From: Loxodes magnus
Lineage: Eukaryota > Ciliophora > Karyorelictea > Loxodida > Loxodidae
Reading direction: 5' to 3'
Assembly: GCA_946699065.1 (NCBI GenBank)
Contig: CAMPDV010000323.1
Coordinates: forward strand, 62,001-126,000
Length of the DNA: 64,000 nucleotides
Shown here: positions 1 through 64,000 of the stretch, piece after piece
Position numbering within the stretch: position 1 is the first letter of the stretch
Layout: each line of letters opens with the position of its first letter
Program-made: the position numbers and the translations under genes
Notes under the pieces: model-generated
The model's input: the letters and a program-made list of their open reading frames with translations, nothing else
The model's database searches: none
Told to the model about the DNA's origin: nothing

Positions 1-1688
1 AAGAATCCTTAGAATATCTATTTTTCTTACCTATAAAAGATTTTTCCATAACCATGTGGTTTGTTTTGTGAATCTAATTCTCCTTCATAGATTTCTTATT
101 AATTAATATTAATTAAGCAAAGTCTATTTTTTCCTATAGCTACCTTTGTATTCATTATTTCAGTAAATCTTTCTATTAGTTTCTTTATCCTTAAATCATT
201 AATTTATAGTTATGGAAAGTATATTTTAGTATCTATAATTGAGATATCTAGCTTGTAGTTTAGATTTAGTATTAGTTATTAGTATATTTTTTTATCATAC
301 TCATAATAAACTCTTTCTATAGTTTTGTTCTCTAGGTTAATGAGAATTCCATTTCCATTTTTAAATCCATTTCTAAATTCTCCTTCATAATACATTTCTT
401 CATATAAAAGTCTTCCCATTCCCTCAGGAAATAATTAGGAGCTAACTTATCCAATATAAACTTTCGATTGATAGACAACTTAACTAGAAATGAAGTATTT
501 AGTATATTGTTATGTATAAAGCTTTTACTACTATAGGTAAATCAAATAAAAGGATTAAGAATAATTAGATTCTATTTCATCTAGTTTAAGATAAGGAATT
601 TTCTCTAATTTATATAAAATTTACAAACTATTTTTTAAGGTATAAGACAATTAAATTGTCTTTGTAAGTTTAGAAGTTCCTAAATTGCTATTTTAATATT
701 TTATTAAGTCAGATACTTAAGAAACCTATTGCTAACTAACTGACTAATCCTCACTTTAAATTAATGAAAAAACTGGAGTTTCTTAGGTAGTTTCTACAGA
801 CATAGACTATTATATACCTTCATTATTTATGATGTAATCACTATTTGTTTAGATTTCTACCTTTTACTTTAAGTTATACTATTTTATATTATACTTTAGA
901 TAATCTATGGCTTAATTCCTATAAGCTTGCTATAATTATTTAAAGTCACATCTCATTTCTTCATCATACTAAAGCATTAGAAATAGACTCCATTATAAGA
1001 GTTCTCTATTTTAGTTGGGATAGCAATCATTTATTAGCTATCCTATTAAATCATATAGCTCTTAGCTATCTATTTTTACTTCATTCAGTTTAAGATGATC
1101 TTGGTTTCTAAGAGTTATAACTTCAAGTAAAGTAATTCCTAATGAAAATGCATCTGACTTATATAAATTTCTATCTTTATAGAATATTTAAGGAGATTGG
1201 TAGCCTTAAGTATAGATAGTTGAAGTAGACTCTTGAATCTAACTTTAAGGATCTGAGTAATCAAAATCTCCTATTTTTAAATTTCCTTGCTAGTCAATGA
1301 AGATGTTATGAGGCTTGATATCTTAATGGGAAATTTCTAAATTTTAAAGAAAAGCAAATGCATCTATAAGAAATAGAGTGACTCTATTAATTCAGTCAAA
1401 CTCAAAGTTTGATTAATTTCTATTATTGCTCAGTTGATATAAGGATCCTTGCTCACAATATTACATTTCTATCCAATACTAATTCTTTTGAGAGATATCA
1501 TAGCTATAAATTTGAACACAGTACTATTAGTATGTTTCATTAGAATTTCATAGTTTTTTGATGATTTACTCAATTCTCTGATGATTTCTAGCTGATTTAA
1601 TAAACTTTATAATTCTAACTTCCTATTATCAGTTTAATACTTTTATGATGTAAACTTTATCTGTTTCATATACTTTAACATTTAGCAT
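1..1688 (-). CDS. Protein kinase with C-terminal MORN repeats (3' end cut by window)
   Basis: Ser/Thr-type kinase domain followed by MORN repeats. With TAA/TAG as Gln and TGA as Trp the frame is unbroken for about 562 codons. Seen: YIIK (Lys16, ATP site), YWIEMQYCEQGSLY hinge (71-84), catalytic loop HQDIKPHN (121-128; Asp123, Lys125, Asn128), DFD in place of DFG (141-143), GYQSPQ in place of the APE block (162-167), and KSDAFSLGITLLE (177-189). A Gln/Ser-rich linker follows, then MORN units near 430-475 and 545-562 (YYEGEFRNGFKNGNG; EIYEGELDSQNKPHGYG). Three TGA codons fall at Trp20, Trp47 and Trp99 (the W..R of subdomain VIa); two TGG are also used. TGA is otherwise absent, far below chance, so this is real coding sequence. 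The glycine loop is not clear and the true start may lie upstream or across an intron. The DFG and APE changes make full activity uncertain. MORN repeats usually tether proteins to membranes or the cortex. Confidence 0.85.
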
Positions 1689-2199
1689 TTATAAATACTT
1701 TAAAGTTCCATAATTTATATAAAAATAAAAATATATACAGTAGAGATTATTTCATCTTATAAGATTTTATATTTTATAGTTTTGATTTAACTTATAAATT
1801 TTTTTCGTTAATCTAAAAAATTAAAATTTTAGAAGAAATTAAATTTCAAAAGATTAAAATAGAGAATAAAGTATTTATTTTATCCAAGCAAATTCTTTGT
1901 ATTTTTACGAATTTGTCCTTTGTAATTTTTTTAATAATTACAAGAGGCTTTAAATCATAATACTAAAATCTAAAATTGTTCAAATTTCAAAAATGAACTA
2001 AAAAGATTTAAAATATAGTAAAATAATTTCAAAAATATACTAAATAAATCTAAAGACTATTTTAAAATATTACTGTTTATAAAGGAAGCAAAAATTATAT
2101 TTTATTTCAGTTTAAAATTTTTAAATATCTTTCAGATATCATAAGATATCAAAAAATATAATTATTTAAAATAAATGTCTATTTTTAATAGAAAATTTA

Positions 2200-2480
2200 T
2201 GATAGAAAAAAATATAATTGAGGAAAGAAAATTATGTAATAGCTATGCGAGAAATAAATAAGAAGAAAATTGAAAATAAGAAAAGAGTTTGGAGTTCGTG
2301 GGAACACAATTTATAACTAATATAGAAGAAACAAAAAAACAGGAGCAGTAAGTATTAAATAAAGGTTGATTTTAAGCTTACATAAACTCTTTATACTTAA
2401 CATAATTCGCATGAAATATAACTATAAAAAGTGCATTTATGTCCTAATACTCAAAGTATTGAAACTTTTTTAATTTATTG
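2200..2480 (+). pseudogene. LINE 3' end, plus-oriented
   Basis: Remnant of the last codons and 3' untranslated end of a retroelement. A Lys/Gln-rich frame (about 2220-2370) is related to the one at 2740-2960 on the other strand. It is followed by the conserved 3' segment with CATAATTCGC, TATGTCCTAATAC and a perfect palindrome (AATACTcaaAGTATT, 2446-2460), then a T-rich tail. The same 3' segment recurs at 2615-2700 and, more diverged, at 17000-17075. No reverse transcriptase remains attached. Confidence 0.5.
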
Positions 2481-2880
2481 TATTTTTTTATACTAGAGTA
2501 GCAATATTAAATTACAGTAATTATAAAGTTTATTGTCTTAATCAACTAAAAGATATTTGTTGCTTATATATTTTCCAATACCTTATAGTAAATATTTTAT
2601 AAGTGATTTTAATAAGATAAAAGAGCTTCAATACTTTGAGTATTGGGACATAATTGCACACTTTTAAATATATTTTGTGCGAATTAAGTTAAGTATAAGA
2701 TTTTATGTAAGTTTTAATCAACTTTTAGTTAATTCTTCCTGTTCTGCTTTTTTTTCTTCTATATTATTTCTTAGTTGCACACTCGCTTTTCTTCTTTCTT
2801 TTTATTTTCAATTTTCTTCTTATTTATTTTTTTGTATAACCATTACTTAAGTTCCTTTCTTAAATTATATACTTTCTCAC
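2220..2880. repeat. Imperfect inverted repeat made of two convergent LINE 3' ends
   Basis: The left arm (about 2220-2480) and right arm (about 2615-2880) are reverse complements with scattered mismatches over some 260 bases, around a spacer of about 135 bases. The left edge of the 15.8-kb direct repeat (2521) falls inside this spacer, so copy B carries only the right arm. Confidence 0.65.
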
Positions 2881-2960
2881 ATCAATTTATCTTTTTGCTT
2901 TCTCTATTATATTTTTTAATATCTATCATTTTTGAAGCAATTTTTGATGAAAATGTTTGA
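2615..2960 (-). pseudogene. LINE 3' end, minus-oriented (copy A)
   Basis: Mirror-image partner of the 2200-2480 element. Reading on the minus strand, a Lys-rich C-terminal frame (INKKKIENKKKEEK, around 2800) is followed by the conserved 3' end and the hairpin CAATACTttgAGTATTG (2629-2645). The two elements lie tail to tail with about 135 bases between them. Any plus-strand ATG frame at 2775-2960 is the antisense of this low-complexity coding end. Confidence 0.5.
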
Positions 2961-3224
2961 TGTATTTTTCAATATTTTAATATAATATTTATATATTTTA
3001 TGCTAGTATAATAAATCTAGCTTTTATTCTGCTAACACAATTTTATAAACTAAGTTTCTGAGTTTATTGATCATTAAAATAAATGCTCATTCTTATAAAA
3101 ATTTATATCTTACTATCTAGAAATTTAGCCTTATTAAAATTAATCTTATGGAATGACTTAAAAGCGCATTTTAATTTAAAAAAAAGATAAAAAAAGCAAA
3201 ATTTAAAGTCAGACTTTTAGATTA

Positions 3225-3520
3225 TTCTCATTCGATATTATCTTACCAACTGTAATTGTTCAAGGGGTTAACGAAATTATCTTACCATCTTTCGTACTTA
3301 ATCAGAAAAGCCTTTAGTGGCTTAATATTCTAATTCTTATATAATTTAATTCCATTTTGACCGAAATCAAATCTTTTAAGCTGGATTATTTTAAATTCGC
3401 AAGTTTAGTCAAAGAAATATAGAGATTAATAGTTCTGACCTTTAAAGAGGTTTAGATGGTAACTTAATATAAGTTACTATCTTTTAGCAAAAATGTGTAC
3501 TGTATAGTTAAGACTCTGAT
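3225..3520 (-). other. Possible coding remnant, unassigned
   Basis: A minus-strand frame here has a protein-like composition unlike the flanking AT-rich DNA (for example CEFKIIQLKRFDFGQNGIK near 3370-3400). The LKRFDF core is faintly like the box around the catalytic His of ubiquitin-specific proteases, but the His is Gln and nothing else supports that family. Since no codon is a strict stop in this genome, openness proves nothing. A shifted copy lies at about 48889-49184. Confidence 0.2.
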
Positions 3521-3571
3521 TTTTAGTAAAAAGAAATTTGCTTATTTCCGGTGAAAAGATTATGAGTAAGT

Positions 3572-3760
3572 ATGCCGAGAAAGAAAAAACTCAGAGATGA
3601 GCAAGCTCAGAGGAGATAATACTTTAGTAATAAATTTAATTATTTAAGATAAGGCAAAAAATTGTCGGAGTGATTCTGTCTTTTCTGTATAACATTTAAG
3701 AAAGCAAAAATATAAATTAGGTTAATGGTAATATTTAGAAGAAACTAATTCTAAAAATAT
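3572..3760 (+). other. Possible short coding remnant, unassigned
   Basis: A plus frame starting at ATG 3572 reads a basic N-terminus (MPRKKKLRDEQAQRRQ), then a run with Cys and Trp residues, and loses coherence after about 50 codons. It is duplicated at about 49236. It could be the start of a retroelement ORF; there is no motif to identify it. Confidence 0.15.
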
Positions 3761-4589
3761 TGCTCTTATATTATAATTTTTGAACCAAAAATCATTAAAA
3801 ATTTAATCAGAAAATCTTAGACTTGAAGCACATAATAATAATCATTAATTTTAAAGTGAAACATTTAAAATTGTTTTAAACTTGTATTATATTGAAAAAC
3901 TACACGACTCTTTCAATATAAAAATGCATTAGAACTAAAAAATTCAGAGGGACTAAAAACTATGTATGCATAGACGAATTTAAGTCCACATTTCAATTCA
4001 TCAATCTAAAGCTTATTCTATTTTTTCTTCAACCATTAATCATTTCTTATCATCATTTTATATATAAACTATAAATAGAAAATTCAAAAAGCTTTAAATT
4101 TACTATTCCACAATAAAAAGTTCTATTAAAACTTTTAGTTATTTCGTGCAAAATTTATCAGTAGATTAATCAATCATAACTGAAAAATTTACTCAATAAT
4201 TTAAACTTAATTAAACAAAGTTAATTCAGAAAAAGAAAGATTTTTAATCTAAGAAAAATAATGTGAATAGAAATAAAATTTCTAATCTATAGTAATATTA
4301 GAATTTTTATTTGCTTATAGTAAATTTTACCTTTTATATATAAAAGATAGATTAAAAGCGAATTTACTTATTTATCAAAATTATTACTTTTTCTTCGAAA
4401 GTTAATTTTCCAACATAACCAAATATAAAGTAAGTAGATAGTGTATTTTCAAACTTAGTTTCGACTGTTTTGCTTGGTGTCAAATCGATTACTTCTAATT
4501 TCAAAAATAGATCTGGACAAATTTTTAAATTATAAACCTTTTCTCTAATATGCTATTTATAAAAAATATTGCTTGTAGGTTTATTAAAA

Positions 4590-5390
4590 AGATTTTTAGA
4601 AGCTGCTAAAGAAACAGGAGCACATGACATCTTAATAGATCTAAAAAATGGAAAAAAACGTCCCAAAATGCATCTTAACTCTGAAGAAAAGCCTAAAAAT
4701 TAGAATAAGTCCATATTGAATTAAAAGGTTTCTGAATTTACTACGGTTTAATAAACAAATTTTAATCAATTTGTCAAAGTTATATTAAACTTACAAGAAG
4801 AGGTTAATAGACTAAAGAAGAAAGCGAATAAATTAATGGAAGATTTCTTAAGCATGAAGCATATTCTAAAGATGAAAGCCTAAGAGCGAAATCTTAGTAG
4901 GTTTATACTATTCAGTAAAGTTAAAATAGTCAATCTATCAAATGAGTTTCGGATCTTAAAAAGATGAAAAAAGAAGTATAAAAATAGCGATTGAATTAAA
5001 GCAAAATTAAATTGAAATATTAAAGGAGAATTGCAAATAGAGGAAATAAAGATCAAAAATAAAAAAAGAGAATAAAGTTGATATTTTGTAATTCACATAA
5101 GCTTCTTCTCAGAAAATATCAAAATAAGGCAATGAAATAGATTGGTAGAATCAATAATCTTCAGTAAACATTACCGAAAGAATGTAAAAGGTAACAGGAG
5201 AAATTATATTGTAATTAAATAGGATAAATCGTAGAATAACGACATAGTACTACTATCAAAGAGTAAATGAAAAACTTGAGTAAATAAATGATACCACCCA
5301 TCAAAGAATCTTAAACTTTTTTATTAAATTCCTGATACAATGGGAGATCAATTTAAATGACTCCGAAGCCACTAAACTAAGCCTATTCTA
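4590..5390 (+). pseudogene. Decayed zinc-knuckle ORF1 (copy A)
   Basis: Retroelement ORF1 remnant. The coiled-coil stretch VSEF....QFVKVILNLQEEVNRLKK (about 4735-4825) aligns closely with the minus-strand ORF1 at 30.3-31.0 kb (VSEF....QLIKVVLNLQEEIKRLKK), including the later QERNL/QERDL block. The zinc knuckle near 5085-5110 is degenerate: only CNSHK remains of the usual CX2CX4HX4C. The frame breaks at least twice. The start is uncertain; candidates are an ATG at 4668 in the coiled-coil frame or one near 4624 in another frame. The antisense ATG frame in the copy B equivalent (50216-50446) is a shadow. Confidence 0.65.
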
Positions 5391-6169
5391 TTGATATATA
5401 ATATAATTTCAAAAAGGATTTTAGTTTGTTAGAATTATGAAATGCTAGACTTGCTCTCACCATTTTTATTCTTTTATTAAATATCATAAATAAATTACAT
5501 TTTTGACTTAAAAAACAATAATACTCTAAAGTTATAACTTTAAAAACAATCTATAATATAAAAAAAAGTAAATTATCTATAAAAGCTTGCCTTACTGATA
5601 ATAAAATGAATACAAAAAAAATTATTTGAATACTAATTATTTATAATATGCTTAAAAATATTTCTTTAAAAAAGAATAAAAAATTACAATTATTTTGAAT
5701 ACTTTTTCATTATATTTAATTTATTTAACGTAAAGACGTGAGATTTAGATAATATTCGAGTTAGTTAAAAGGCAATTGGAAATTTGGTAAATAAATTAAA
5801 ATGATAGTTTTAATCAGTTATAAAAGTAAAAATTAATAATTGGAGCCTAAAAAAGAACAGCAAGAAAATACAAATCGCAACGGAGATAAGTTGAAAGATG
5901 AAAAGAACGAAGCTTGAACTTAATGAACATAATTAAAATGAAGTATATGATTCATATCCGTAACTTAATCTCATTAACATTTTTATTAAAGTGATTTCTT
6001 TTTCTATGGAAAGTTTATTTATTTTTTTTAGAAAATTTTTGATTATTTGAGCAAAAACCACAAAAAAAAACGATACACTTTAATTTATATGATCTATTTT
6101 AATAAAGCTGGACTAAAATGCAAAAATATTTAAATGAGTATTTATAATTTATTTAAAAAATAGCTTAAA
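5391..6169. other. AT-rich interval, little recognisable
   Basis: Mostly A/T runs. At 5720-5950 a plus frame is Arg/Lys/Gln-rich (for example QKRTARKYKSQRRQ), somewhat like the C-terminal tail of an ORF1 protein, but no knuckle or conserved block is attached. Nothing else is supported. Confidence 0.3.
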
Positions 6170-6600
6170 AAGAAATTATTATGTATCTTCTTTACGACTA
6201 GTAAAGTATTCTTTAATTGAATTACTTAATGACTTAGTTGATGTACTAAAATGCATTAAGCCAGCATTATCATAATAAATATCATCATTTTGGTTATAGT
6301 TATCTAGTATTTTAAGTCTGGTTACATAATGTCTATTTTATCTATCTCCATAAATGATTTAGTTAGCCATCTACATAAATAATGCTTTTATTTATATATT
6401 TATATGCTTTTAATTGCCATTTTACCACTGCTTCAGAAAAACTTTAACTTAAAAAAGCCATGTAATATAGATCCAACATATGAATTAGCAGCTATATAAT
6501 CACCGTCACCACATATAGCTCTTTCAAAAAGACCATCTGTATTAATAAATTATTCTGTAACTTCAGCTCATGCATAACCAGCTGTGATAATATTTATTTA
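6170..6600 (-). pseudogene. Broken gene fragment, unassigned (copy A)
   Basis: The minus strand reads three protein-like segments in three frames. First is ITAGYAWAEVTEQFINTDGL followed by an acidic/Gly stretch (about 6590-6460). Then SEAVVKWQLKAYKYINKS (about 6440-6390). Last is VTRLKILDNYNQNDDIYYD (about 6330-6270), ending near 6180. They join with single-base frame changes, so this is probably one gene broken by indels or with short introns. The first segment has a faint likeness to TMEM147-type membrane proteins (GWA.AE), too weak to name it. A GGC-to-GGT difference in copy B is synonymous in the middle frame. Confidence 0.35.
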
Positions 6601-8012
6601 ATTTTTTTACTTATATTTTTACATTAATTTTGAGTATGTTTCATTTGTACTATAAAAGGAATTAAACAATCTTTATAAAATCAAAATTTATTTGAGTTTA
6701 TTTCCTCAAGTTTCCATTTCATTTTTCAAAATACAATAAATTTTCTCTAAAATTGGTATCTTAAAATATGAAATTTATCAGAATTTAGTAAGAAAGTATT
6801 AAAAAAGTTAATTTTTCAGAATTTTTTTAAAAATAAAATAATAAATTGAAAAATTCTAATTTAAATCACGGAAAAAAACTTGAACAAAAATTTAATTTCG
6901 AGACTTTTTTTAATCATAACTAGTTACGAATTTTATTTAATTCGAACAATTATAATCTCAAAACTTTATTTTCTAGTTAATGATAATTTTATTTTTCGCT
7001 CACTTTGAAAAATTGCATTAACAAAATTTTTATGTTTTACTTACTATTATAATAATTTATAATAATAACAAAAAAAATTGCACATTATAATATATAAATT
7101 AATTACATAACTTCATCCAAAAATTTAACTAAAAGCATATTATTATAGAAATAGAGAATAGTTAAACCTGAAAGTAAATATGAGATATAGTTATTTATTA
7201 TTACCAGTTGAATAGTTTAAAAATATTGTCATTTTAAATATAAATTTTAATTATAGAATCTTTAAATTAAGACTAATAGCCTTCTAAGTTTCCTTCCAAA
7301 TGTTAAAATTTTAAGTAAGAAATATATTTTATCATGCTTATACATAAAGAAAAGCAGCTAGAAGTAAAAATTTATAAATTTCGATTTAATTTTTCTTATT
7401 GGAGTTGGTATTAAAAGACAGAATTTAAAAAAAAGCTAGAAATTTATTTTTTTAATAGTAATTACAATCTTCTAAATCAATGCTGTGAGGCCAGTCTAAG
7501 ATTTATCTTTACTATATTAGATGGAACTATTAATATTTATAAGTATAATAGATTTTAATGAAATAGTTATGATTACTGAAATATTGGAAAAGGATTATAA
7601 ATTTAGTTTATAAGGATTATCATACACATTAATCGAAAATGTTAGAGAAAAATTGCTAATAATATAATCCTCTAAATTTAGAGTATAGAAATAAAATGGA
7701 TAGTTGAAAAACTCTAATTTAGTTGTCAATAACAGGATAATTTTAAAAGGAAAAAAGAACTTAATTTAATATGAATAAATTCACTTAAATGTTTAAGTAA
7801 AATGAAATTACATGTCTAAAATGGATATTTATTATATCAAGAAAATTAAAAAAAAAGTTAAAAAATTAATTTTATGAATAGTAAAGAAAATGAGAAATTA
7901 TATATAAAAATTTTTAACAGAAGTAAAAAAATATAAATATAAACGAAATAAATTAAAGAAGCATTTATACTAAATTAAATTAAAAAGTTTAAATTGGAGT
8001 TTAGTGAATTTG
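6601..8012. other. AT-rich interval without recognisable genes
   Basis: Both strands read as A/T-rich low-complexity sequence. No family motif, tRNA-like fold or GC-rich island was found. The same applies to the copy B equivalent (about 52280-53687). Confidence 0.4.
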
Positions 8013-8028
8013 GAGGACTTTCAACCTC
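8013..8028 (-). other. 3' stem-loop of ORF1 element
   Basis: On the minus strand, GAGG-TTGAAAGT-CCTC lies five bases after the ORF1 stop. The same loop with different, still paired, stem bases follows other ORF1 genes (30270-30285, 32479-32494, 23102-23116). The copy B equivalent is 53688-53703. Confidence 0.65.
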
Positions 8029-8032
8029 GTGT

Positions 8033-8737
8033 TCACAGGACCAGTTTGGTAACCTGACTAGAATCAGCTCCCTTCAGAACTCTTTCTTCAGTCGCCTTGG
8101 ATTGTGTACCACTTCGGTTTGTAGATTAAACTCCTGACGGATAAAATTAGTTACAGAATTCTCGTCTAATCTTATCCTAATATTAGTACTATTATTTTTC
8201 TTATTATTTTCTATTCCAGTACTATTATTTAATTAATTTCAATTTCTAGCATTGTCTATATTTATGTCCAGTTTGTTTGCATACAAAGCATCTTGGTTTA
8301 TTCCTAATTCATTTCTTGTCTGGACTCCTCGGTAACGTAGTAGCTCCTTCTATGTCCATTGGATCTTGAATTGTCCTAACTTTGAATTCCTACTACTGTT
8401 GCTACTTGCTGTTCTCTTCAAGCATAGTTGTTCTCTGCTGCAGCAATCCCATTTCCCTGAAGAAAGTGTTTTGCTCTCGATCGTAGACTTCCCAGAAGCT
8501 TTCTTTCCATTCCTTGAGCTCAGTAACTTGATTTTTTAGAGCTCTATTCTCTAATTGTAGCCTCTTTACTTCTTCCTTCAGGTCAGCGAATGCGACTAAA
8601 ATTTATGCCTGTTCTTCCTGGAACTATGGCATCACAAACTCTCGCACGACTGCTGCTTCTTGCGTCTCCAGCACCTTTCTAGGTCCTTCCTCTTCAGTTG
8701 ATGTCATCGGGGTAGCCTTTTGGCTCTTTTGTCCCAT
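8033..8737 (-). CDS. Zinc-knuckle ORF1 protein, copy A
   Basis: Nucleic-acid-binding ORF1 of a non-LTR-type retroelement, 234 aa. It starts MGQKSQKATP, followed by a coiled coil (about 40-115, LKEEVKRLQLENRALKNQ) and a Gln run (112-116). The CCHC knuckle CFVCKQTGHKYRQC (150-163) is a perfect CX2CX4HX4C. The tail is basic and Gln-rich, ending LVL then TGA. One in-frame TGA at residue 143 (8309-8311) precedes the knuckle; read as Trp the protein is whole. The start is the first ATG in frame; a block shared with the 31-kb element lies about 130 bases upstream. Base use is richer in G+C than the flanks. No reverse transcriptase follows, so the element may be non-autonomous. Confidence 0.75.
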
Positions 8738-8845
8738 CTTTTAGGTTGGTCTGGAAGTTCCTAGTTGAGTCTATTATTCTTGAAGGTTTTGAGAAGAAGA
8801 TGTGTGAGTTAAAGTTGAGAGTTCTTCCTTTCTCTCCCCTTTTTA

Positions 8846-8880
8846 GGAGGTGGTATAAAAGCCTTTCTTAAACCTTTCTA
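8846..8880 (-). promoter_or_regulatory. Conserved 5' leader block of ORF1 element
   Basis: Minus strand reads about GGTTTaagaaAGGCTTTTAT then ACCACCTCC. It matches the block at 31156-31190, also minus strand and also about 130 bases before an ORF1 ATG. It probably marks the element's 5' untranslated region or internal promoter (inference). Confidence 0.45.
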
Positions 8881-9589
8881 CCATTTTTATTTAAAGAAAG
8901 ATTTATTTAATAGAAATTAAGCAGATAATAAAGAAGAATTTTCTCATAATAAAAATATAATTTCGAAAGCTAAATTATTAAGTCCATAAAAAATTAAATA
9001 TTAAGAGACAATAATAAGTTATTTTATTATTCTGAAGATAAATTTACAGAATTATGTTAATTTTACGATATAAATTTGAGAGATAAGGTCCAAGAGAATT
9101 TAATAGCAGAATTTTGAAAATGTTAAATAGGTTTAATATTCAGAAAGAAATTATGATAAAAATTTTAAAATAAAAAGTTTAGAAAAACAGAAAAAATATC
9201 ATAATTTTTAAAATAATTATACAATTTGGAGCAAACGAAAATTTCATTTATTTAGTTAGAAAAACATCAAAAGAAAAAAGCCAACGTGTTATAAAAATTA
9301 GACATATTAATAATGATATTAGTAAATTTGAATGAAAAAATTGTTTGCATAAAACATAAAAATACACTTTACGTATCTACATTTCATTAAGAAGAAAACT
9401 TAAAACAGCAAGATTATCCAAAGTAAAGAAGTATTTTTTAATTTGCTAGTATAAATGTATTCTAAATTACGATATTAAAATTAAAGAACATAGAAATTAA
9501 TTACCATAAAAAGATAAATAATATAACATAATATATTAAAGTGATTTTACCTTTTTTTGACTAATCACAAAATTAGAGTTTGCATAAAT

Positions 9590-10281
9590 TTTTCTTATCA
9601 GAAATCTTCTTCAGAGTAGACTTGAATTACTTCTCACTTTCCCTTGTTTCCACTAAGACTTGCATTCATGAGCTTCCATACACCAAATCAATGTTGTCTT
9701 TTATTCCATTTTCTTGCTTCAATTAGTATTAGAGGTATTGCTTGGATGATTTATTGTTCTTTTTTTCTATATATTGTGCTTCTTTTGAACAGTATTTTTT
9801 AAACATTTTATTTAATGCCTTTCGTTCTTCTTTTTTTCTTTTTCCTTAAAATTCCAACAGTTTCTTACCTTGTGGTCTTATTTCTTACAGTATCAGCACC
9901 TAATTATTGGTCTTATTTATGTATAAATTAATGCTTAATTTATTTCTTCTCTCTGTGTCTCTACATCCATGGGATCATAATTTATCTTATTTTGCAGTTC
10001 CTAATATTTTCCATAATTTATTCTTTGTAATTTTTCTTCAGTCTGTTGGATTAATGAGTATATTTGCCGAACAGAAGGTCTTCTTACAATATCTTATTTT
10101 AATCCATTGTTTTCCTGTTTCAGTTAATCAACTTGCTAGATTAGCACGCATACTTAATTTTAAAGTTCTTAGAGTATCTGTTAGAGTTTAAGGTTTTCCT
10201 TTTTTTAGATGCTAAAATCAATCTAAATTTCTTATTATTTTTATTTGTCTAATTTGGAGATTGTTATTTTTTAGGTACCAT
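9590..10281 (-). pseudogene. Zinc-knuckle ORF1, frameshifted (copy A)
   Basis: ORF1 protein of the same broad family. ATG at 10281 reads MVPKKQQSPNQTNKNNKKF. After a one-base shift near 10200 a long coiled coil follows (LKLQQILQELQNQ to IQQTEEKLQRI), then DPMDVETQ and the CCHC knuckle near 9885-9845. The knuckle is Cys-[TGA]-Tyr-Cys-KKQD-His-KVRN-Cys, so TGA stands where relatives have an aromatic residue. Downstream, the frame IPLILIEARKWNKRQH then GVWKLMNASLSGNKG is coherent after another shift. At one TGA in this tail copy B has GGA, so not every TGA is ancestral Trp. The plus-strand ATG frame 9907-10191 is the antisense shadow. Confidence 0.65.
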
Positions 10282-10459
10282 TTTATATATCATAATAAAT
10301 ATTAAAAATTTAACAATCAAACATCTAATTAAATAATAAATTAATTTTTATTTTTATAAATTTTTTTAATTTTAGGCAATAAGAAAATAGCATTCATTAA
10401 AGGAAAAATAACAAAAAATTAATTAAGATTTACTATTAAAAAATTAATTTAGTATAAAA

Positions 10460-10500
10460 GGTCTGCATACCAACGATGTACTACGTGTTCTTTAATCAAA
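10460..10500 (+). other. 3' hairpin plus TTTA tail of a short retroelement
   Basis: The segment from GGTCTGCATACC to ACGTGTTCT is a diverged copy of the hairpin at 17576-17606 (opposite strand) and is followed by AATTTATTTATTTAT, the same tail type. Only the 3' end is seen here. The copy B equivalent is 56137-56167. Confidence 0.45.
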
Positions 10501-10699
10501 TTTATTTATTTATATGAATATTTAAGAGGTTTTAGATGAAAAAAAAATTCACTCAGACTTTTAAACAAAATAAAGTAAAATTAGAATTAGAAAATTTTTA
10601 TTTTATTTATCATTTACAGATTTAAAAAAAATATGTAAAATGCTATTCTGAAGATTATTGATTTTACAAATGATGAAATTATTTCCTAATTTCTGATTA

Positions 10700-11230
10700 G
10701 AAATGCTCAATTTTTTATTTATATTCAACTAGTAATTTCTAGAATGTATTTTGTTCCCAAAATAATATTTTTTTAAAGAATAAGAAGATGGTTCTCTATA
10801 AGATATTTAAATTGCGATTCTATGAATATTGATAATGTAAGCTTTATATATATATTGATTTATAAGTATCTAAAAAATTCTATTTATATAATGAAGAATA
10901 AAATTAACATCATCTTTTTAGCATAATTTTCATCGAATATGATTTAAATTATTAAATGTCATTAAAACCAGATTACAATTCTCTTTCTTGATTAATTAAC
11001 ACAGTGACTTCTAAAATCTTGATGATATCTTTATCTATATGTTCAATACAAAAAATATAGCAAAAATTATTTAAATAAAATTTCTTTTTGACTAAAACTC
11101 TTCCAAAGCAACAAGAAACTATTTAATTTATATTTTTATCTAAACATATGTAGTTATTATTATATTTTCGATATGATATCTTACTACCACATTCAACTTT
11201 TATCTCTTCAAATGCCTAAAATTATATTAA
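10700..11230 (-). other. Possible coding remnant, unassigned
   Basis: A minus frame running down from about 11220 has a balanced, protein-like composition (for example VECGSKISYRKYNNNYICLD, then CCFGRVLVKKKFYLNN) for about 100 codons before becoming low-complexity. No family is recognised. A near-identical copy lies at 56378-56908. Open frames are uninformative in this code, so this stays a guess. Confidence 0.2.
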
Positions 11231-25787: not shown

Positions 25788-25799
25788 AAAAATTTTAAC

Positions 25800-35990: not shown

Positions 35991-35999
35991 TGATAGCAA

Positions 36000-51846: not shown

Positions 51847-52277
51847 AAGAAATTATTATGTATCTTCTTTACGACTAGTAAAGTATTCTTTAATTGAATT
51901 ACTTAATGACTTAGTTGATGTACTAAAATGCATTAAGCCAGCATTATCATAATAAATATCATCATTTTGGTTATAGTTATCTAGTATTTTAAGTCTGGTT
52001 ACATAATGTCTATTTTATCTATCTCCATAAATGATTTAGTTAACCATCTACATAAATAATGCTTTTATTTATATATTTATATGCTTTTAATTGCCATTTT
52101 ACCACTGCTTCAGAAAAACTTTAACTTAAAAAAGCCATGTAATATAGATCCAACATATGAATTAGCAGCTATATAATCACCGTCACCACATATAGCTCTT
52201 TCAAAAAGACCATCTGTATTAATAAATTATTCTGTAACTTCAGCTCATGCATAACCAGCTGTGATAATATTTATTTA
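51847..52277 (-). pseudogene. Broken gene fragment, unassigned (copy B)
   Basis: Copy of 6170-6600. The same frame breaks are present, so the damage predates the duplication. Confidence 0.35.
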
Positions 52278-53707
52278 ATTTTTTTACTTATATTTTTACA
52301 TTAATTTTGAGTATGTTTCATTTGTACTATAAAAGGAATTAAACAATCTTTATAAAATCAAAATTTATTTGAGTTTATTTCCTCAAGTTTCCATTTCATT
52401 TTTCAAAACACAATAAATTTTCTCTAAAATTGGTATCTTAAAATATGAAATTTATCAGAATTTAGTAAGAAAGTATTAAAAAAGTTAATTTTTCAGAATT
52501 TTTTTAAAAATAAAATAATAAATTGAAAAATTCTAATTTAAATCACGGAAAAAAACTTGAACAAAAATTTAATTTCGAGACTTTTTTTAATCATAACTAG
52601 TTACGAATTTTATTTAATTCGAACAATTATAATCTAAAAACTTTATTTTCTAGTTAATGATAATTTTATTTTTCGCTCACTTTGAAAAATTGCATTAACA
52701 AAATTTTTATGTTTTACTTACTATTATAATAATTTATAATAGTAACAAAAAAAATTGCACATTATAATATAAATTAATTACATAACTTCATCCAAAAATT
52801 TAGCTAAAAGCATATTATTATAGAAATAGAGAATAGTTAAACCTGAAAGTAAATATGAGATATAGTTATTTATTATTATCAGTTGAATAGTTTAAAAATA
52901 TTGTCATTTTAAATATAAATTTTAATTATAGAATCTTTAAATTAAGACTAATAGCCTTCTAAGTTTCCTTCCAAATGTTAAAATTTTAAGTAAGAAATAT
53001 ATTTTATCATGCTTATACATAAAGAAAAGCAGCTAGAAGTAAAAATTTATAAATTTCGATTTAATTTTTCTTATTGGAGTTGGTATTAAAAGACAGAATT
53101 TAAAAAAAAGCTAGAAATTTATTTTTTTAATAGTAATTACAATCTTCTAAATCAATGCTGTGAGGCCAGTCTAAGATTTATCTTTACTATATTAGATGGA
53201 ATTATTAATATTTATAAGTATAATAGATTTTAATGAAATAGTTATGATTACTGAAATATTGGAAAAGGATTATAAATTTAGTTTATAAGGATTATCATAC
53301 ACATTAATCGAAAATGTTAGAGAAAAATTGCTAATAATATAATCCTCTAAATTTAGAGTATAGAAATAAAATGGATAGTTGAAAAACTCTAATTTAGTTG
53401 TCAATAACAGGATAATTTTAAAAGGAAAAAAGAACTTAATTTAATATGAATAAATTCACTTAAATGTTTAAGTAAAATGAAATTACATGTCTAAAATGGA
53501 TATTTATTATATCAAGAAAATTAAAAAAAAAGTTAAAAAATTAATTTTATGAATAGTAAAGAAAATGAGAAATTATATATAAAAATTTTTAACAGAAGTA
53601 AAAAAATATAAATATAAACGAAATAAATTAAAGAAGCATTTATACTAAATTAAATTAAAAAGTTTAAATTGGAGTTTAGTGAATTTGGAGGACTTTCAAC
53701 CTCGTGT

Positions 53708-54412
53708 TCACAGGACCAGTTTGGTAACCTGACTGGAATCAGCTCCCTTCAGAACTCTTTCTTCAGTCGCCTTGGATTGTGTACCACTTCGGTTTGTAGA
53801 TTAAACTCCTGACGGATAAAATTAGTTACAGAATTCTCGTCTAATCTTATCCTAATATTAGTACTATTATTTTTCTTATTATTTTCTATTCCAGTACTAT
53901 TATTTAATTAATTTCAATTTCTAGCATTGTCTATATTTATGTCCAGTTTGTTTGCATACAAAGCATCTTGGTTTATTCCTAATTCATTTCTTGTCTGGAC
54001 TCCTCGGTAACGTAGTAGCTCCTTCTATGTCCATTGGATCTTGAATTATCCTAACTTTGAATTCCTACTACTGTTGCTACTTGCTGTTCTCTTCAAGCAT
54101 AGTTGTTCTCTGCTGCAGCAATCCCATTTCCCTGAAGAAAGTGTTTTGCTCTCGATCGTAGACTTCCCAGAAGCTTTCTTTCCATTCCTTGAGCTCAGTA
54201 ACTTGATTTTTTAGAGCTCTATTCTCTAATCGTAGCCTCTTTACTTCTTCCTTCAGGTCAGCGAATGCGACTAAAATTTATGCCTGTTCTTCCTGGAACT
54301 ATGGCATCACAAACTCTCGCACGACTGCTGCTTCTTGCGTCTCCAGCACCTTTCTAGGTCCTTCCTCTTCAGTTGATGTCATCGGGGTAGCCTTTTGGCT
54401 CTTTTGTCCCAT
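53708..54412 (-). CDS. Zinc-knuckle ORF1 protein, copy B
   Basis: Copy of 8033-8737: same 234-aa frame, same coiled coil, CFVCKQTGHKYRQC knuckle and same internal TGA before the knuckle. Only a handful of base differences. The 3' stem-loop is at 53688-53703 and the leader block just upstream at about 54521-54555. Confidence 0.75.
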
Positions 54413-55267
54413 CTTTTAGGTTGGTCTGGAAGTTCCTAGTTGAGTCTATTATTCTTGAAGGTTTTGAGAAGAAGATGTGTGAGTTAAAGTTGAGGGTTCT
54501 TCCTTTCTCTCCCCTTTTTAGGAGGTGGTATAAAAGCCTTTCTTAAACCCTTCTACCATTTTTATTTAAAGAAAGATTTATTTAATAGAAATTAAGCAGA
54601 TAATAAAGAAGAATTTTCTCATAATAAAAATATAATTTCGAAAGCTAAATTATTAAGTCCATAAAAAATTAAATATTAAGAGACAATAATAAGTTATTTT
54701 ATTATTCTGAAGATAAATTTACAGAATTATGTTAATTTTACGATATAAATTTGAGAGATAAGGTCCAAGAGAATTTAATAGCAGAATTTTGAAAATGTTA
54801 AATAGGTTTAATATTCAGAAAGAAATTATGATAAAAATTTTAAAATAAAAAGTTTAAAAAAACAGAAAAAATATCATAATTTTTTAAAATAATTATACAA
54901 TTTGGAGCAAACGAAAATTTCATTTATTTAGTTAGAAAAACATCAAAAGAAAAAAGCCAACGTGTTATAAAAATTAGACATATTAATAATGATATTAAGT
55001 AAATTTGAATGAAAAAATTGTTTGCATAAAACATAAAAATACACTTCACGTATCTACATTTCATTAAGAAGAAAACTTAAAACAGCAAGATTATCCAAAG
55101 TAAAGAAGTATTTTTTTAATTTGCTAGTATAAATGTATTCTAAATTACGATATTAAAATTAAAGAACATAGAAATTAATTACCATAAAAAGATAAATAAT
55201 ATAACATAATATATTAAAGTGATTTTACCTTTTTTTGACTAATCACAAAATTAGAGTTTGCATAAAT

Positions 55268-55959
55268 TTTTCTTATCAGAAATCTTCTTCAGAGTAGACT
55301 TGAATTACTTCTCACTTTCCCTTGCTTCCACTAAGACTTGCATTCATGAGCTTCCATACACCAAATCCATGTTGTCTTTTATTCCATTTTCTTGCTTCAA
55401 TTAGTATTAGAGGTATTGCTTGGATGATTTATTGTTCTTTTTTTCTATATATTGTGCTTCTTTTGAACAGTATTTTTTAAACATTTTATTTAATGCCTTT
55501 CGTTCTTCTTTTTTTCTTTTTCCTTAAAATTCCAACAGTTTCTTACCTTGTGGTCTTATTTCTTACAGTATCAGCACCTAATTATTGGTCTTATTTATGT
55601 ATAAATTAATGCTTAATTTATTTCTTCTCTCTGTGTCTCTACATCCATGGGATCATAGTTTATCTTATTTTGCAGTTCCTAATATTTTCCATAATTTATT
55701 CTTTGTAATTTTTCTTCAGTCTGTTGGATTAATGAGTATATTTGCCGAACAGAAGGTCTTCTTACAATATCTTATTTTAATCCATTGTTTTCCTGTTTCA
55801 GTTAATCAACTTGCTAGATTAGCACGCATACTTAATTTTAAAGTTCTTAGAGTATCTGTTAGAGTTTAAGGTTTTCCTTTTTTTAGATGCTAAAATAAAT
55901 CTAAATTTCTTATTATTTTTATTTGTCTAATTTGGAGATTGTTATTTTTTAGGTACCAT
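55268..55959 (-). pseudogene. Zinc-knuckle ORF1, frameshifted (copy B)
   Basis: Copy of 9590-10281. At the codon that is TGA in copy A (QH-TGA-FGVW) this copy has GGA, showing TGA arose there from Gly or the reverse. The plus frame 55585-55869 is its antisense shadow. Confidence 0.65.
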
Positions 55960-56136
55960 TTTATATATCATAATAAATATTAAAAATTTAACAATCAAAC
56001 ATCTAATTAAATAATAAATTAATTTTTATTTTTATAAATTTTTTTAATTTTAGGCAATAAGAAAATAGCATTCATTAAAGGAAAAATAACAAAAAATTAA
56101 TTAAGATTTACTATTAAAAATTAATTTAGTATAAAA

Positions 56137-56177
56137 GGTCTGCATACCAACGATGTACTACGTGTTCTTTAATCAAA
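56137..56177 (+). other. 3' hairpin plus TTTA tail (copy B)
   Basis: Copy of 10460-10500. Confidence 0.45.
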
Positions 56178-58079
56178 TTTATTTATTTATATGAATATTT
56201 AAGAGGTTTTAGATGAAGAAAAAATTTCACTCAGACTTTTAAACAAAATAAAGTAAAATTAGAATTAGAAAATTTTTATTTTATTTATCATTTACAGATT
56301 TAAAAAAAATATGTAAAATGCTATTCTGAAGATTATTGATTTTACAAATGATGAAATTATTTCCTAATTTCTGATTATAAATGCTCAATTTTTTATTTAT
56401 ATTCAACTAGTAATTTCTAGAATGTATTTTGTTCCCAAAATAATATTTTTTTAAAGAATAAGAAGATGGTTCTCTATAAGATATTTAAATTGCGATTCTA
56501 TGAATATTGATAATGTAAGCTTTATATATATATTGATTTATAAGTATCTAAAAAATTCTATTTATATAATGAAGAATAAAATTAACATCATCTTTTTAGC
56601 ATAATTTTCATCGAATATGATTTAAATTATTAAATGTCATTAAAACCAGATTACAATTCTCTTTCTTGATTAATTAACACAGTGACTTCTAAAATCTTGA
56701 TGATATCTTTATCTATATGTTCAATACAAAAAATATAGCAAAAATTATTTAAATAAAATTTCTTTTTGACTAAAACTCTTCCAAAGCAACAAGAAACTAT
56801 TTAATTTATATTTTTATCTAAACATATGTAGTTATTATTATATTTTCGATATGATATCTTACTACCACATTCAACTTTTATCTCTTCAAATGCCTAAAAT
56901 TATATTAAACTATTTTCGTTCTATAATCATTTATTTTGTCAGTTAAAGATATATTAAAAAAATATATTAATAAAGGTAATTAAAATCTTTTAGTGAAACT
57001 AAGGCTAAAATTAATTTACTTATTATTCTATAAACTTACTTTATTTTAATTAAAAAACTTTATTTTTATTTTTGACACTTTTTAAATATTAATATTCGAT
57101 TAGTAATTTTAATTACTTTGAATATCTCTAACATAGTAAAATATCATTTATAAATAAAATATTTGTTTATATATTTTTGATGCTTCATTTCATAATTTTT
57201 CTTTGAGTATTTCATTTTATTGAGTTTATTTAAAATTTTTTTGTAAATTTTGTTTTTTTCGCTTTTATAAAATTATATGATTGTTTTAGTTTTTTTATAT
57301 AAGTGTATATAATACAATAAAAGAAAGGTTTTCTTCTTTTTTTATATATTTTAATGTAGACTTAACTTTTTTCCGAATAGACTTTTATTTTTTAAGATTT
57401 TTTACTTTTTAAAGTATTTTTTGGAGCTTAAATAATTAGAAGAAACTATTTTAAGAAAATTTTTTTTTATTAAATCTTACACTTTTTACCTAAATAAACT
57501 TCTCTTCTACCTTTTTGAATTGACTTGCATTACTATTATTATTGGCGCTTATTTATTTCCAAAAAGTTATTCTTAACAAAAATTGTTACTATATAGTGTT
57601 ACTTTTATTATTTTAATTTTTAATTTTATTTATATAAAAATACCTTTTTGGTGCTTTATTATTTAACAATTACATAAAATAAATACTTCAATGGTCCTTA
57701 ATTGAAGATTTCAATTTATAGCTTAAAAATATTAGTAATTAATGACATTACTACCTGATAAGTTAAATTTTATATTTATTTTATTTTAAAAACGAATGTA
57801 TTTTGTATGTTATCTAAGCCAATACAAATTATGCTATAAAGAACCTTAAATTTTTTCTTTATAGTCTTTTGATATATTCCATTAGTTGAAATAATTTGCA
57901 TTACAGATTTCAAATGAACTTCAATTTTTAAAAAATATTGGTAGTAACAAGAGATATTTTGTTACTTCATCTAAATACTACAAAGAATTTACGAAAAATT
58001 TCGAAAAAAAACCAAAAAGTTTAAGTACATTTGACTCACTTTAATGTATCTTAAAATTTTTTTAATTTATCCAAGTTAA

Positions 58080-58418
58080 ATGAGTTTCATTGAAAAAATA
58101 AGCAGGCATATGCAAAAAATCAAAAGAGATTTAGGAGAGCTAACTTCAAACTACAAGAATAATAAACAGTACAAATACGTAGAAAATTTTACCTTAGCTG
58201 CAGAATAGGTTATTTATTAATTATTTCTTAAGAGCTTTAAAATACCAAAAAACATTGTTATTAAGAAATAGAAAAATCATTTATCAAATGAAAAATTTAG
58301 CGAAAATAAAATAAATCTCTTTTATACTCAAATTTTAGATATATTAAAACCTTATCTAAAAGCTTTTTTAAAATGCATTAAATTTTCCAAAATATTCTTA
58401 TAATGAAAGAAATTTATG
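58080..58418 (+). other. Possible small gene, hypothetical (copy B)
   Basis: Copy of 12402-12740, same frame and start. Confidence 0.3.
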
Positions 58419-61400
58419 TCTCTTAAGATCTTTTTTAATATTCCAAAAACTGTATCTTCTTACAAATAATCATCAATTAAAAAAATTATAATATTTGCAT
58501 ATACTATGAATTAACTTTACTGAAAGACAATAATTTTCTTAATTTTATATTAAAATCTTTTTTATTTGTAATTTAAATTAATGCTTTCAATTTTTCACTA
58601 TTTTTTATTAAAAATCAATAATAATATAAAAAGTTTTGTTTAAAAAATTACCTAAAAAATACTTTTCAATAGCTTTTTTATATATTCCATTTTGTCAGCA
58701 AGCTATTAAATTTAATTATATTTAAACATTATAAAATATTATATAATTTGCAAATCTTCATCTTATATTTAAAACGAACAGGAATTTTAAAATTAAATGT
58801 TTAGAAATAGTTTAATTTATTCTTAAAATCGGGTATTAACATTTTAATATAGTCGCTTTTTGTAAAAAATATCAAATGAAAACTAAGCCATTAAAAATAT
58901 TTGATATATTTTTACTCTTTATTTATTAGATATTTTTTTCTTATTAGTTTTTAAAAGTTAAATAAAAAACTGTATAAAAGAATTAATAAAATCTTACTAA
59001 AAACGAAATGTATATCGTAACATGTTTTCAATATCGAAATATTAAAATCTTATAAATTGGCTTTAGAAAACTTATAGGCAAAAACTCTTAATAAAACAAG
59101 AGACTAAAATTATTTATTTTTTAAATATGAGTTATAAGAAATATAAATTAAGGGGTTTTAAGAATAAAATAAAAAAAGATGAAAAATTTTATAATCAAGA
59201 GTAAAATAGTTTATAAAAAAATATTTTGTGCTTATAACTAGCAGTTTAATAAAATCTCATAAGAATCTTTATAAATTAGATTACAAAAATTTAATAAAAA
59301 TTTCAGTTGTGAATTTTTTTAACTGAAATAGTGCAATTTTACTTTAAATATAGTTTCTTTTTTATGGAACTTTGCCTTTTTATCTATAAAGCATTTTATT
59401 TATCAATTTCACTTATTACTTTCTTTCAATTTTTTGTTTTCAAATATTCTTGATTTCTTATCGAATATTTAGAATTTTATTATTAGTGATAATTTTTTCT
59501 TCTTTGGTTTTACCTTTTTTCTCATTCTGTATTTTTTATTTAATTATGATTTTTATGCTTTTGCTTATTTAAATAATTTATATTAGATTTTTAAATTTAC
59601 TTCCGCTATCAATTTAATACGAATTCTTATAATCTTTTTAAAACTTTAATATTTCAGAATTTATAAACTCGAATATTCTATTTTTTGTAATTGCATTTTG
59701 TCTTTAATTATTTTAATTTAAAATAAATACAATTCCTATACTTTTTTCTTGCTGCTTTACTTTCATCTTACTCGTTTAATTAAAATATTAAATCATTTTT
59801 TATTATTCTTAGAGCTATTTATCTGTGTTAATTTTCAAATAGCATTTTAGATTAAATATCTATTAATTTATTTCTCCTACCTTTCTTAGACAAATTATAG
59901 TTTAAAAGAGTTTAAGAATAAAGATATTCTGTTTTATTTTCTTACAGTCTATTTTAAAAGCTTTCAAACTTTTTTATTTGTTTTAATTTTCTATAAAGCA
60001 TACATGAAAAATTTCTAATCCTGAATATCTTAAATTACTTTATAGATTCAATTTAGTCATAATTAAACATTCGAAAGATAGATTTACAATGAAGGAAAAT
60101 CCCAAACAATTTTTTCTGCATTAATAAAAATTCAACAATCATTAGTTAAAAAAAATTTAATTTTCTTTAAATTATTAAAAATATATCCTAATTATTTTAA
60201 TTAATGCCTTATATAAAAAATTATAATTTATTAATCTTAAATTTATCTTTCTCTCAGATATTTTAAACACATATATCTCATATATCTATGATTATACTTT
60301 ATAAATTCATACTAGTTCTATATAAAATTTATTGCAAATATTTTTTAATTTCAAATAAAATTTTAACTCAAATAATTGTAAAGTTAATTTATTATTATTA
60401 TGAAATTTATATCTTTATTAATGCTAGTTTTGATTTACTTAATAACTTGAATACATCTTTGCCAAATTATTCATTTCCAAATTTAATGTTTTATTTATAG
60501 TTATTTTAAAATATCGACTTCTTAATTTATTTTTTAACTTCAATCTTTAAATTAAGTTTTTTAATTTTGTTCTTTTTTTATTTCCTGCTTTACTTTTAAA
60601 TTTATTTTTCTCTTATTTTATAAATAAATCTCAATTCTTTAATATAATTTATTTTTCTTCTATACTTTCTCATTCTAAACTTTCATTTTTTTCATACCAA
60701 CTCTAAGCACTTTTCCTTTTACTTCTTATTTTATTGCCTAAAGAAAAATCACCTATTAACTAATTTATTTAATTACATTTATTTCACTATTTAATAGTCA
60801 ACGCATATTTGTAATTTTTTATTGATAAGTTATGAAATTTCTTAGAATGTTTGCTTCCTTTTTTAATTATATTAGAACTTAGTTTTTTATACTTTTAATT
60901 TTGGGCGATTTTTATGAATATAGCATAACTCAATATCTATATTTATTTCATTCTACATAACTTTAAGTATAGGATTTTTACATCTAATTTATTAAAGATG
61001 GAAAATACTAGAATGACGAAAAATTAGAGCATTAAAATATAATTTTTCGATTCTGAGCATAAAAAAGATAACATGCAGAATGTAAAAAAGCTAACAAAAA
61101 AATACAACAAATGCTCAATAATTTACCTTAATCTTATCTTCTCAAAAGCAAAGTTAAACATCACATAATTTATTTGTTTTATTACTTCCTCAGCAGTTTA
61201 TATTCATTTTTTGTCATTATATATTTAATAGTTTTAGTTACCTTATAAAGTGCTTTATCTTTAATTGCTTCTAATTAAATTTTCTAATTTTCTATTAATA
61301 ATACTTTGAACATTACTTACTAGTGAATCTTTTTTCACCGATAATGTTAAAATATTGATAAATTATAGAAATAAAAGCATTTTTTTCTTTTTTATAGGTT

Positions 61401-61877
61401 CAATAACATCAAATAATTAAAGTTGCTAAACTAATATAGAAGTCTATTTTTACTTAAAATTCTATAAGCTAACACTTTTTAATCGAAATATTGAAAGTAT
61501 TTATATAAGAATACTTTCTAAGAAGAAAGATTATAGTTGGATAAGTAGAGGTTTATGTTTTTTCGCAAAAATAAGTAAAATTAATTTAACTAAACTTTGA
61601 AAAAATCAAGAGGGATTAAGAAACACTGAAGCAAAGATGAAAATTTAGAGAGTACTATTTATGTAAAAATTGAAGGAGACAGATTTAATAACTAAAGACA
61701 TAAAATAAATTTAAACTATATAATTGCTTCTTTAATATAGTTGCTATATAGATATGGAAAATGCTTTAGTTTCAAATACATTAAAATAAATCTCTTCTAA
61801 ATTTGATTTATTTTAATTGATCATATTAAAGGATAAAATTAAACTAAAGTCATTTAAGTTAAAAATTAATAATAAAA

Positions 61878-62438
61878 CTGGATCAAGATTGAGATTTTCT
61901 ATTTAAATGTATATTAATTGGCTAATAAGGAACAGGAAGATGGAGTATAATGGAGAGATTGACAAAAAAATAAATTTATGAATAACTAAAAGCAACAAAT
62001 AGGACTTGATTTTTATGCTCACTAAATTAAAATAGAGTAAAATAAATTGAAACTATGAGATTGATGTTCATAAGGAATTGAAATATTTCAATCTATAATC
62101 AAATTAAAAAAACATAAATAATTTTTTTAACTTACGACGTTACAAGCTTAGATTACTTTGAGAGAATTAAAGATGAGCATTTAATTGCAAAGTAATTAAT
62201 TACTTTAAAAAATCAATTTATCTTAATAGGAGCGAAAGTAGATTTAAAAAAGAAAGATAAATATCATATGAAGAAGGATTTGAATTAATAATTTAATTGA
62301 GAATGCCTTTTTTGAAATTTCATAAAAAAAGGCTTAAATTTAGTAGAAACATTCTAATAATCAGCGACAATGATATTAGAAGCCATTTATGACGAGAAAA
62401 ATGATGAAGAACTTTAAAATTTTAAAAATAATAACTGA
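61878..62438 (+). pseudogene. Rab-like GTPase, frameshifted (copy B)
   Basis: Copy of 16200-16760. The start codon is CTG instead of ATG and a few further substitutions are present. The shared frame breaks show it was already a pseudogene before duplication. Confidence 0.8.
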
Positions 62439-62637
62439 ACTGATCCTTTTAAAAGCTATAACTATAAATATATTTTTTTAAGATTAGTAATAAAATAATT
62501 AATTTTTAATTTTTATTCTAAAATATCTAAATCATTTAACTTAAAGAATATAAAATTTGCAACTTTATATTTATTTTAAGTAAAAAATTTAAAATAGAAA
62601 TTAAAAGCAAATAAAGCTTATGAGAATTATTAATGGC

Positions 62638-62938
62638 ATGATTTGATATTTAATAATAATAATAATAAACTATAAGAGTTTCAATATTTGAAATATTGAG
62701 ACATAATTACATATTTATTCTTTATTAACTATGTACATTATGTTAAATTTAAAGTTTCTACATTTTCAATCATGGCTCTCTTTCACTCTCATCTTGGTAA
62801 AGACTAGATTAGCTCATTAAATCTATTTATTGCTTTTTATTAGAATTTATTTCTTCTTCATTCTAGTATTTAATATTCTTTATATTCTTCAAAATAATCA
62901 TTGACGAAATATTTTTTTATGTTTAACTAAATTTAAAT
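62638..62938 (-). pseudogene. LINE 3' end with tail (copy B)
   Basis: Copy of 16960-17260, with the same palindrome and TTA repeats. The minus frame 63075-63269 further on is low-complexity and not supported as a gene. Confidence 0.55.
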
Positions 62939-63235
62939 TATTTAATCTTTAAATATAGATTAAAAAATAATATAAATAAAGCTGCAATTTTATTTTTAGA
63001 TTTTATATTATTTCTTATAAAAAAAGAAAAACACTTAAATATTTAAAATTATAGATCATTATTTCTTAATATCTTTAAGTTTTACTTTTAGTCAAGAAAT
63101 AAGAAAATTTTTTTATATAACGATGTATTTTGTTTAATAGATGAAAAATATAATTTTTTTCTAAAAAAGAATAATATAAAATATAATTTAAAAAGCACTT
63201 TATCAAACAAAAAAAGTTAAAAAATAGAATAAATA

Positions 63236-63651
63236 AATAAAAATTATTATAGAGTGCGTAGCACCTCATTGGTGCGCAACTCTTTCAATATTAATATTTA
63301 ATATTAAGAAAAATGTTCTCATGTTTCTTGTTAAAATTCTAGAGGTCCGATAAGTCATGTCAACTTCTCTAAATTGAAATCTTCTTATTAAAAATTATTC
63401 TTAAATCTTGAGTCAAATGCTTCAGTCTTCTTGAATAAGGTCCAAATAAGAATTAGTTATTAAGTCTTTAATTAGAAGACCCGTCAGTCAAACTTTCATA
63501 CTGCTAGAGAGAATCCTCGGGGTAAGTTAGATATGTCTCAACGGAGCTTATCCACCCTTCTCCGTGGTGTCATCTAGTGCGAGATTACTCGCAATGCAGT
63601 ATACACTGCACCAGATTACCTACTAATTTGTCTGACACGGGCAACATCCAT
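63236..63651 (-). mobile_element. Short structured repeat (copy B)
   Basis: Copy of 17560-17975, with the identical 3' hairpin at 63252-63282 and a few substitutions in the body. Confidence 0.6.
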
Positions 63652-64000
63652 TTTATAATATAATATATAATAAAATTATATTTATTAGTCATTTCTATTT
63701 AATCTAGCCTAAATAAAAACCTATTGCTATTTAATTTTAAAAAACTATAGTTAATATTATAATTCTATTAAATATAAAAAAAGAATTTACTTTATTTAAA
63801 AAACTAAAAATTATGCAATAAGCAAAATGATAAAAATAAATTATAATATTTAAAAAAATTATAAAATGATTTATCTAAAAGAATTAGAATTTTAAAAATA
63901 TTAAATTAGCTTGTGCATCTTATTTTGATGACTAGACTAGATATGTTATTAATAAGAATATTTAAATTAACATAAACAGTAAATTTATATAAATACGAAA

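Follow-up and report, generated by a model that had tools for sequence, protein, structure and literature searches.

Which of the three stop triplets ends a gene, and which are read as amino acids, when all three lie inside coding sequence? The question is raised by a 64,000-nucleotide stretch of the karyorelict ciliate Loxodes magnus (assembly GCA_946699065.1, contig 323, CAMPDV010000323.1, positions 62001-126000), which we call the window and in which an initial annotation, made from the letters alone, had read TAA and TAG as Gln and TGA as Trp. By extending the search to the whole assembly (705,730,643 bases in 7843 contigs), we found that the window is almost certainly nuclear DNA that follows NCBI table 27, the ambiguous code of karyorelicts, in which UAA and UAG stand for Gln, and UGA is Trp internally and the main stop at gene ends. 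We show the sense meanings of the three triplets, the use of TGA as a terminator where C-termini could be anchored, and the absence of TGA directly before stops. The code itself is known, since it is already in print for Loxodes magnus: PMC11441545 gives UGA as both Trp and stop in this species. The homology-anchored TAA ends that we describe below are a refinement rather than a new kind of code, and termination at UAA is the least settled part of our analysis.

Sense meanings of the three triplets

The residues encoded by the three triplets were read from PRPF8, a single locus with one reading frame over 1948 aligned codons. The triplets were masked as X, each of three pieces of the protein was aligned to the solved PRPF8 chain that matched it best, and the residue facing each codon was tallied. 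TGA faces Trp in 15 of 15 cases (binomial 6e-24), compared with 36 of 39 for TGG. Gln is found opposite 35 of 48 TAA and 11 of 17 TAG codons (together 46/65; binomial 7e-47), and the controls CAA and CAG face Gln in 14 of 25 and 4 of 7 cases, respectively. TGA therefore behaves like TGG, and TAA and TAG behave like CAA and CAG. This tally, of the residue opposite in-frame TGA in a conserved single-copy protein, was the check that the initial annotation had proposed, and the 15 sense TGA codons of PRPF8 place this triplet outside transposons as well as within them. The Ras family gives a similar result for TGA. In a column test of 39 genes, Trp is the majority residue among the paralogues at 28 of the 32 scored TGA codons; only columns with at least 10 readable rows were kept, which left out 1 of 33 TGA, 28 of 170 TAA and 10 of 86 TAG. 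Across the domains of 79 Ras genes, TGA accounts for 89 of the 173 TGA and TGG codons.

The window by itself could suggest a different explanation, namely that the code is the standard one or that of table 6 and that its TGA codons mark pseudogenes and dead transposons. Its reverse transcriptase, of the long interspersed nuclear element (LINE) type, is frame-broken, and several Rab-like genes in it are incomplete or divided between frames. Such decay is at odds with the single frame of PRPF8 and its TGA codons, all on Trp, and with an eRF1 gene (L153, C196:19500-21300) that aligns throughout to solved eRF1, covering residues 4-431 of 436 with 512 bits. On the strength of the PRPF8 tally and the eRF1 alignment we reject this explanation, which has a vanishingly small chance of being correct.

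Triplets at anchored gene ends

Conserved C-termini were used as anchors to determine what ends genes, after the approach of PMC4967479, in which the C-terminus of histone H4 serves as a stop anchor. Among 96 anchored genes, which are paralogues, some of them near-identical, so that the counts are not independent events, 80 end in TGA, 10 in TAA without a nearby TGA, 6 are undecided and none ends in TAG. The histones (20 of 31 matches fetched, 14 with an anchored end) include five H3 genes in which RIRGERT is followed by TGA in every case, three H2B genes, all ending in TGA, and six H3 variants, four of which end in TGA. In the two remaining variants, L006 has TAA with TGA five codons on, and L009 has TAA TAA TAA with no TGA in the remainder of the locus. 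The actin-type C-termini (20 fetched from 96 matches, 2 not anchored) end in TGA in 16 of 18 cases and in TAA in 2 of 18. As a separate observation, about 40 full-length actin matches have near-equal scores, and many lie on a few contigs (C266, C437, C524, C707, C711 and C1162).

The largest set comes from the C-terminal Cys tails of Rab proteins. We fetched 79 of 150 scored Ras/Rab matches (the 39 with the highest scores and 40 of the 45 that followed), and 15 of the 79 lacked a usable Cys anchor. The 64 anchored tails comprise 52 ending in TGA, 7 in TAA, and 5 with TAA and then TGA within the first five codons; none ends in TAG and none has neither triplet. All 7 TAA tails lie in the frame of the domain, whereas another frame, presumably reached across a short intron, holds 21 of the 52 tails that end in TGA and 4 of the 5 that are undecided. 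When only tails in the domain frame are considered, the counts are 31 TGA, 7 TAA and 1 undecided. Two further candidates for TAA stops, L093 and L100, were set aside because the TAA was out of frame; the sequence in the correct frame is ...RAATANQ followed by TGA, and these two were not counted. The anchor of L055, in which CC is out of frame, was set aside. PRPF8 and eRF1, which stand outside the 96-gene count, both end in TGA.

Codon usage ahead of the terminators was compared in the 31 TGA-ending Rab genes, out of 52, whose tail and domain share one frame, taking the last 25 codons (775 in total) against the domain (5055). TGA is absent before the stop (0/775 vs 38/5055; p 0.007), and TAA makes up a lower share of the Gln codons there (20/86 vs 149/321; p 1e-4), while TAG is commoner (33/775 vs 76/5055). 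PMC11441545 likewise describes UGA and UAA as depleted before stops, and UAG as not depleted. Both this pattern, in which UGA is missing ahead of the stop and UAA supplies fewer of the Gln codons there, and the meanings of UAA and UAG as Gln and of UGA as Trp and stop are shared with table 27, the code of Loxodes and Parduczia.

These results bear on what the initial annotation had concluded. Its sense assignments stand on the PRPF8 tally, but it had left out TGA as the main stop (80/96) and the apparent minority stop TAA (10/96). It had also offered the karyorelict and Condylostoma codes side by side, of which the former is supported. In the code of Condylostoma magnum (table 28), each of the three triplets would be both sense and stop; PMC4967479 gives all three sense meanings, with UAA also a stop, and the ten genes that end in TAA without a nearby TGA would fit such a scheme. 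However, the absence of any TAG terminator in the 96 anchored genes, the use of TGA as the main stop, and the enrichment, rather than depletion, of TAG in the last 25 codons run contrary to it. We therefore reject table 28 for TAG on the anchored ends, and consider it highly improbable as a description of this genome.

UAA as a probable second ambiguous codon

About one in ten anchored genes has a TAA end and no nearby TGA, which makes it most likely that UAA is ambiguous as well, whereas UAG looks to be sense only. On the sequence evidence, L. magnus would probably have two ambiguous codons, UAA acting as Gln inside genes and as the true stop of roughly one gene in ten, frequently with both uses in a single gene, and UAG being purely sense. 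As a control, 12 of the 52 TGA-ending Rab genes have a TAA within five in-frame triplets past the stop. In the Rab genes without TGA within five codons of the Cys anchor, TAA is found there in 7 of 7, with a probability by chance of 3.5e-5 at the control rate, a figure weakened by the fact that the anchor rule was fixed after the first cases had been seen. The next TGA lies 16 to more than 55 codons beyond the TAA. Within the domains of all seven genes, TAA and TGA also occur as sense codons, so that TAA would have both roles in a single gene.

An account that keeps strictly to table 27, with UGA as the sole stop, would attribute the ten TAA cases to extended proteins, hidden short introns, pseudogenes or assembly errors. 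PMC11441545 names UGA as the only stop, and the introns it reports, mostly of at most 25 bp, could hide in individual TAA cases. This account has to accommodate, however, the clustering of TAA near the Cys anchor, subject to the post hoc rule, and the fact that every TAA tail is in the frame of a domain with internal TAA and TGA. Two actin-type genes and the H3 variant L009 are likewise difficult for it, as is the smaller share of TAA among Gln codons just before TGA stops. We regard it as unlikely, though clearly less so than table 28, and retain the reading in which UAA is both Gln and stop. The ten TAA ends without nearby TGA are also where our data differ from table 27, which has no provision for them.

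A literature search on UAA stops in karyorelicts found no paper. A UAA stop for a minority of karyorelict transcripts was reportedly suggested by Seah et al. in 2022. The nonstop code of Blastocrithidia offers a parallel, in that each of the three stop triplets can encode an amino acid and UAA also serves as a stop. Tandem UAA stops are mentioned for it in PMC12153298, and we found tandem TAA ends in the H3 variant L009 and in the Rab genes L126 and L127. The two systems differ in that UAA and UAG (UAR) specify Glu in Blastocrithidia and UAA is the triplet with the stop meaning, while in L. magnus UAR is Gln and UGA is the main stop. A UAA that apparently still stops translation, next to a UAG that is apparently sense only, bears on whether the two UAR codons are reassigned jointly.

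Release factor and possible mechanism

How could one triplet be read in both ways? The most likely scheme is the model of PMC4967479, in which the triplet is translated by default and eRF1 prevails where the triplet lies close to the end of the transcript. In L. magnus, sense reading would be carried by Gln tRNAs and by a tRNA-Trp able to read UGA, as deduced or taken from the literature, and eRF1 would win only near the poly(A) tail, because the 3' untranslated regions are proposed to be very short. Short 3' untranslated regions in Loxodes magnus are reported in PMC11441545. The ten TAA-ending genes, namely the Rab genes L045, L049, L092, L118, L121, L126 and L127, the actin-type genes L144 and L145 and the H3 variant L009, allow proximity to the poly(A) tail to be tested as a switch between stop and sense.

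The eRF1 gene described above has UAR codons at Gln positions of the alignment, and the Gln codon of its GGQ motif is TAA; its YxCxxxF motif reads FLCENTF. GGQ is the catalytic motif of eRF1. Since eRF1 requires UAA to be read as Gln at GGQ, its production could in principle register how reading and stopping at UAA are balanced, if UAA indeed has both meanings. The best match to the eRF1_1 domain in the assembly, on contig C2, proved to be Pelota/Dom34 and not eRF1. A second eRF1_1 match lies 35 kb from the eRF1 gene (C196:54613).

To the post hoc choice of the Cys-anchor rule must be added several other points that weigh against our interpretation. The Ras column test did not recover Gln for the UAR codons (15 of 142 TAA and 11 of 76 TAG), probably because masking strips these columns of most of their Gln codons. 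When all codons are counted, TAA shows no significant depletion ahead of the stop (20/775 vs 149/5055; p 0.65). The tRNA-Trp and the UAR-reading tRNA-Gln were not found by a family search that scored 63 of 42,786 tRNA candidates; ARAGORN, run on 90 fetched loci, returned 46 tRNA genes, all Lys(ttt) or Ala(tgc), with no decoding tRNA among them; and BLAST with two tRNA queries, run with no positive control, gave no match. Finally, the broken frame of the window reverse transcriptase weakens the evidence from the window itself, and this element had no Pfam match at E 0.001 in the scanned stretches.

Separately, the tRNA matches occur in regular arrays, with a spacing of 527 bp on contig C103 and of 1752-1753 bp on C78 and C158.

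Rab-like genes of the window

To locate the Rab-like genes, we made a profile of 39 Ras-family domains from this genome with the three triplets masked and searched it against all six frames of the window, masked in the same way; all coordinates were checked letter by letter. WDTAGQE is the usual sequence of the G3 region. Six independent copies span the G3 Trp, and TGA occupies it in all six, as the initial annotation had claimed. On the forward strand, it lies at 16384-16386 (copy 16227-16637, split over two frames, with the codon in the 16285-16425 piece), 19532-19534 (gene 19370-19843, whose translated frame scores 108.2 bits against Pfam PF00071), 21823-21825 (copy 21673-22130) and 25389-25391 (gene 25236-25697, the best PF00071 stretch of its frame). 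On the reverse strand, it lies at 27188-27190 (copy 27340-26886, split over two frames) and 29569-29571 (gene 29724-29263, 95.6 bits against PF00071). A seventh copy, with TGA at 62062-62064 on the forward strand, falls within a 99.5% duplicate of the first copy and is not independent. Paralogues also exchange TGG and TGA, as had been noted, with TGG at 16263 against TGA at 19406-19408 (forward strand). The proposed TGA in AMKW-IPFIET fared less well: AMK-TGA-xIPF is present in three copies, but the Ras profile does not have Trp in this column.

After the Trp, the G3 motif is degenerate in the window copies (for example, W-FPKESE at 19532), and these copies are therefore diverged Rab-like genes, some of them partial or frame-split. 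Pfam scans covered 3500-7502 and 16050-26002 on the forward strand and 1-2903, 7500-10502 and 28300-38202 on the reverse strand, stretches chosen from coding segments proposed by a home-made codon model that was used for this purpose only. They gave Ras matches in the frames of the copies at 19370, 25236 and 29724 (reverse strand) and a weak match near 21700. The Rab-like genes cluster at 16227-29724 and possibly form a lineage-specific, non-canonical GTPase family. The direct duplicate that holds the seventh copy pairs positions 2520-18324 with 48184-64000, about 45.66 kb apart, at 99.5% identity over 15.8 kb and reaches the end of the window; it could be a segmental duplication or two haplotypes assembled together.

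Kinase and reverse transcriptases

Under the standard code, the window contains no open frame of 150 codons or more, an observation that carries little weight alone. A protein kinase domain at 927-1634 on the reverse strand (PF00069, E 6.1e-24) carries in-frame TAA, TAG and TGA; the TGA at Trp99 of a kinase W..R motif, which had been listed earlier, could not be located in the window.

The codons reported for the window reverse transcriptase were all found, on the reverse strand. The DD-KN-RPISL motif at 35736-35747 holds two TGA codons, beginning at 35747 and 35738, on both Trp positions of the DDWKNWRPISL-type motif. TAA encodes the Gln of GVMQG (35338-35340) and that of QMGF, and TGA directly precedes ADD (35209-35211), in a frame different from that of DD-KN-RPISL. 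According to PMC11441545, repeats and LINE-type retrotransposons are abundant in the L. magnus assemblies (848 Mbp micronuclear, 706 Mbp macronuclear). In a survey of the whole assembly, 150 scored RVT_1 domains out of 3403 candidates carry in-frame TGA, TAG and TAA, and therefore retroelements also use the host code. Each of these domains has 3-9 TGA codons, mostly 7-8 over about 262 codons, a higher density than that of the Ras family, where 79 domains hold 89.

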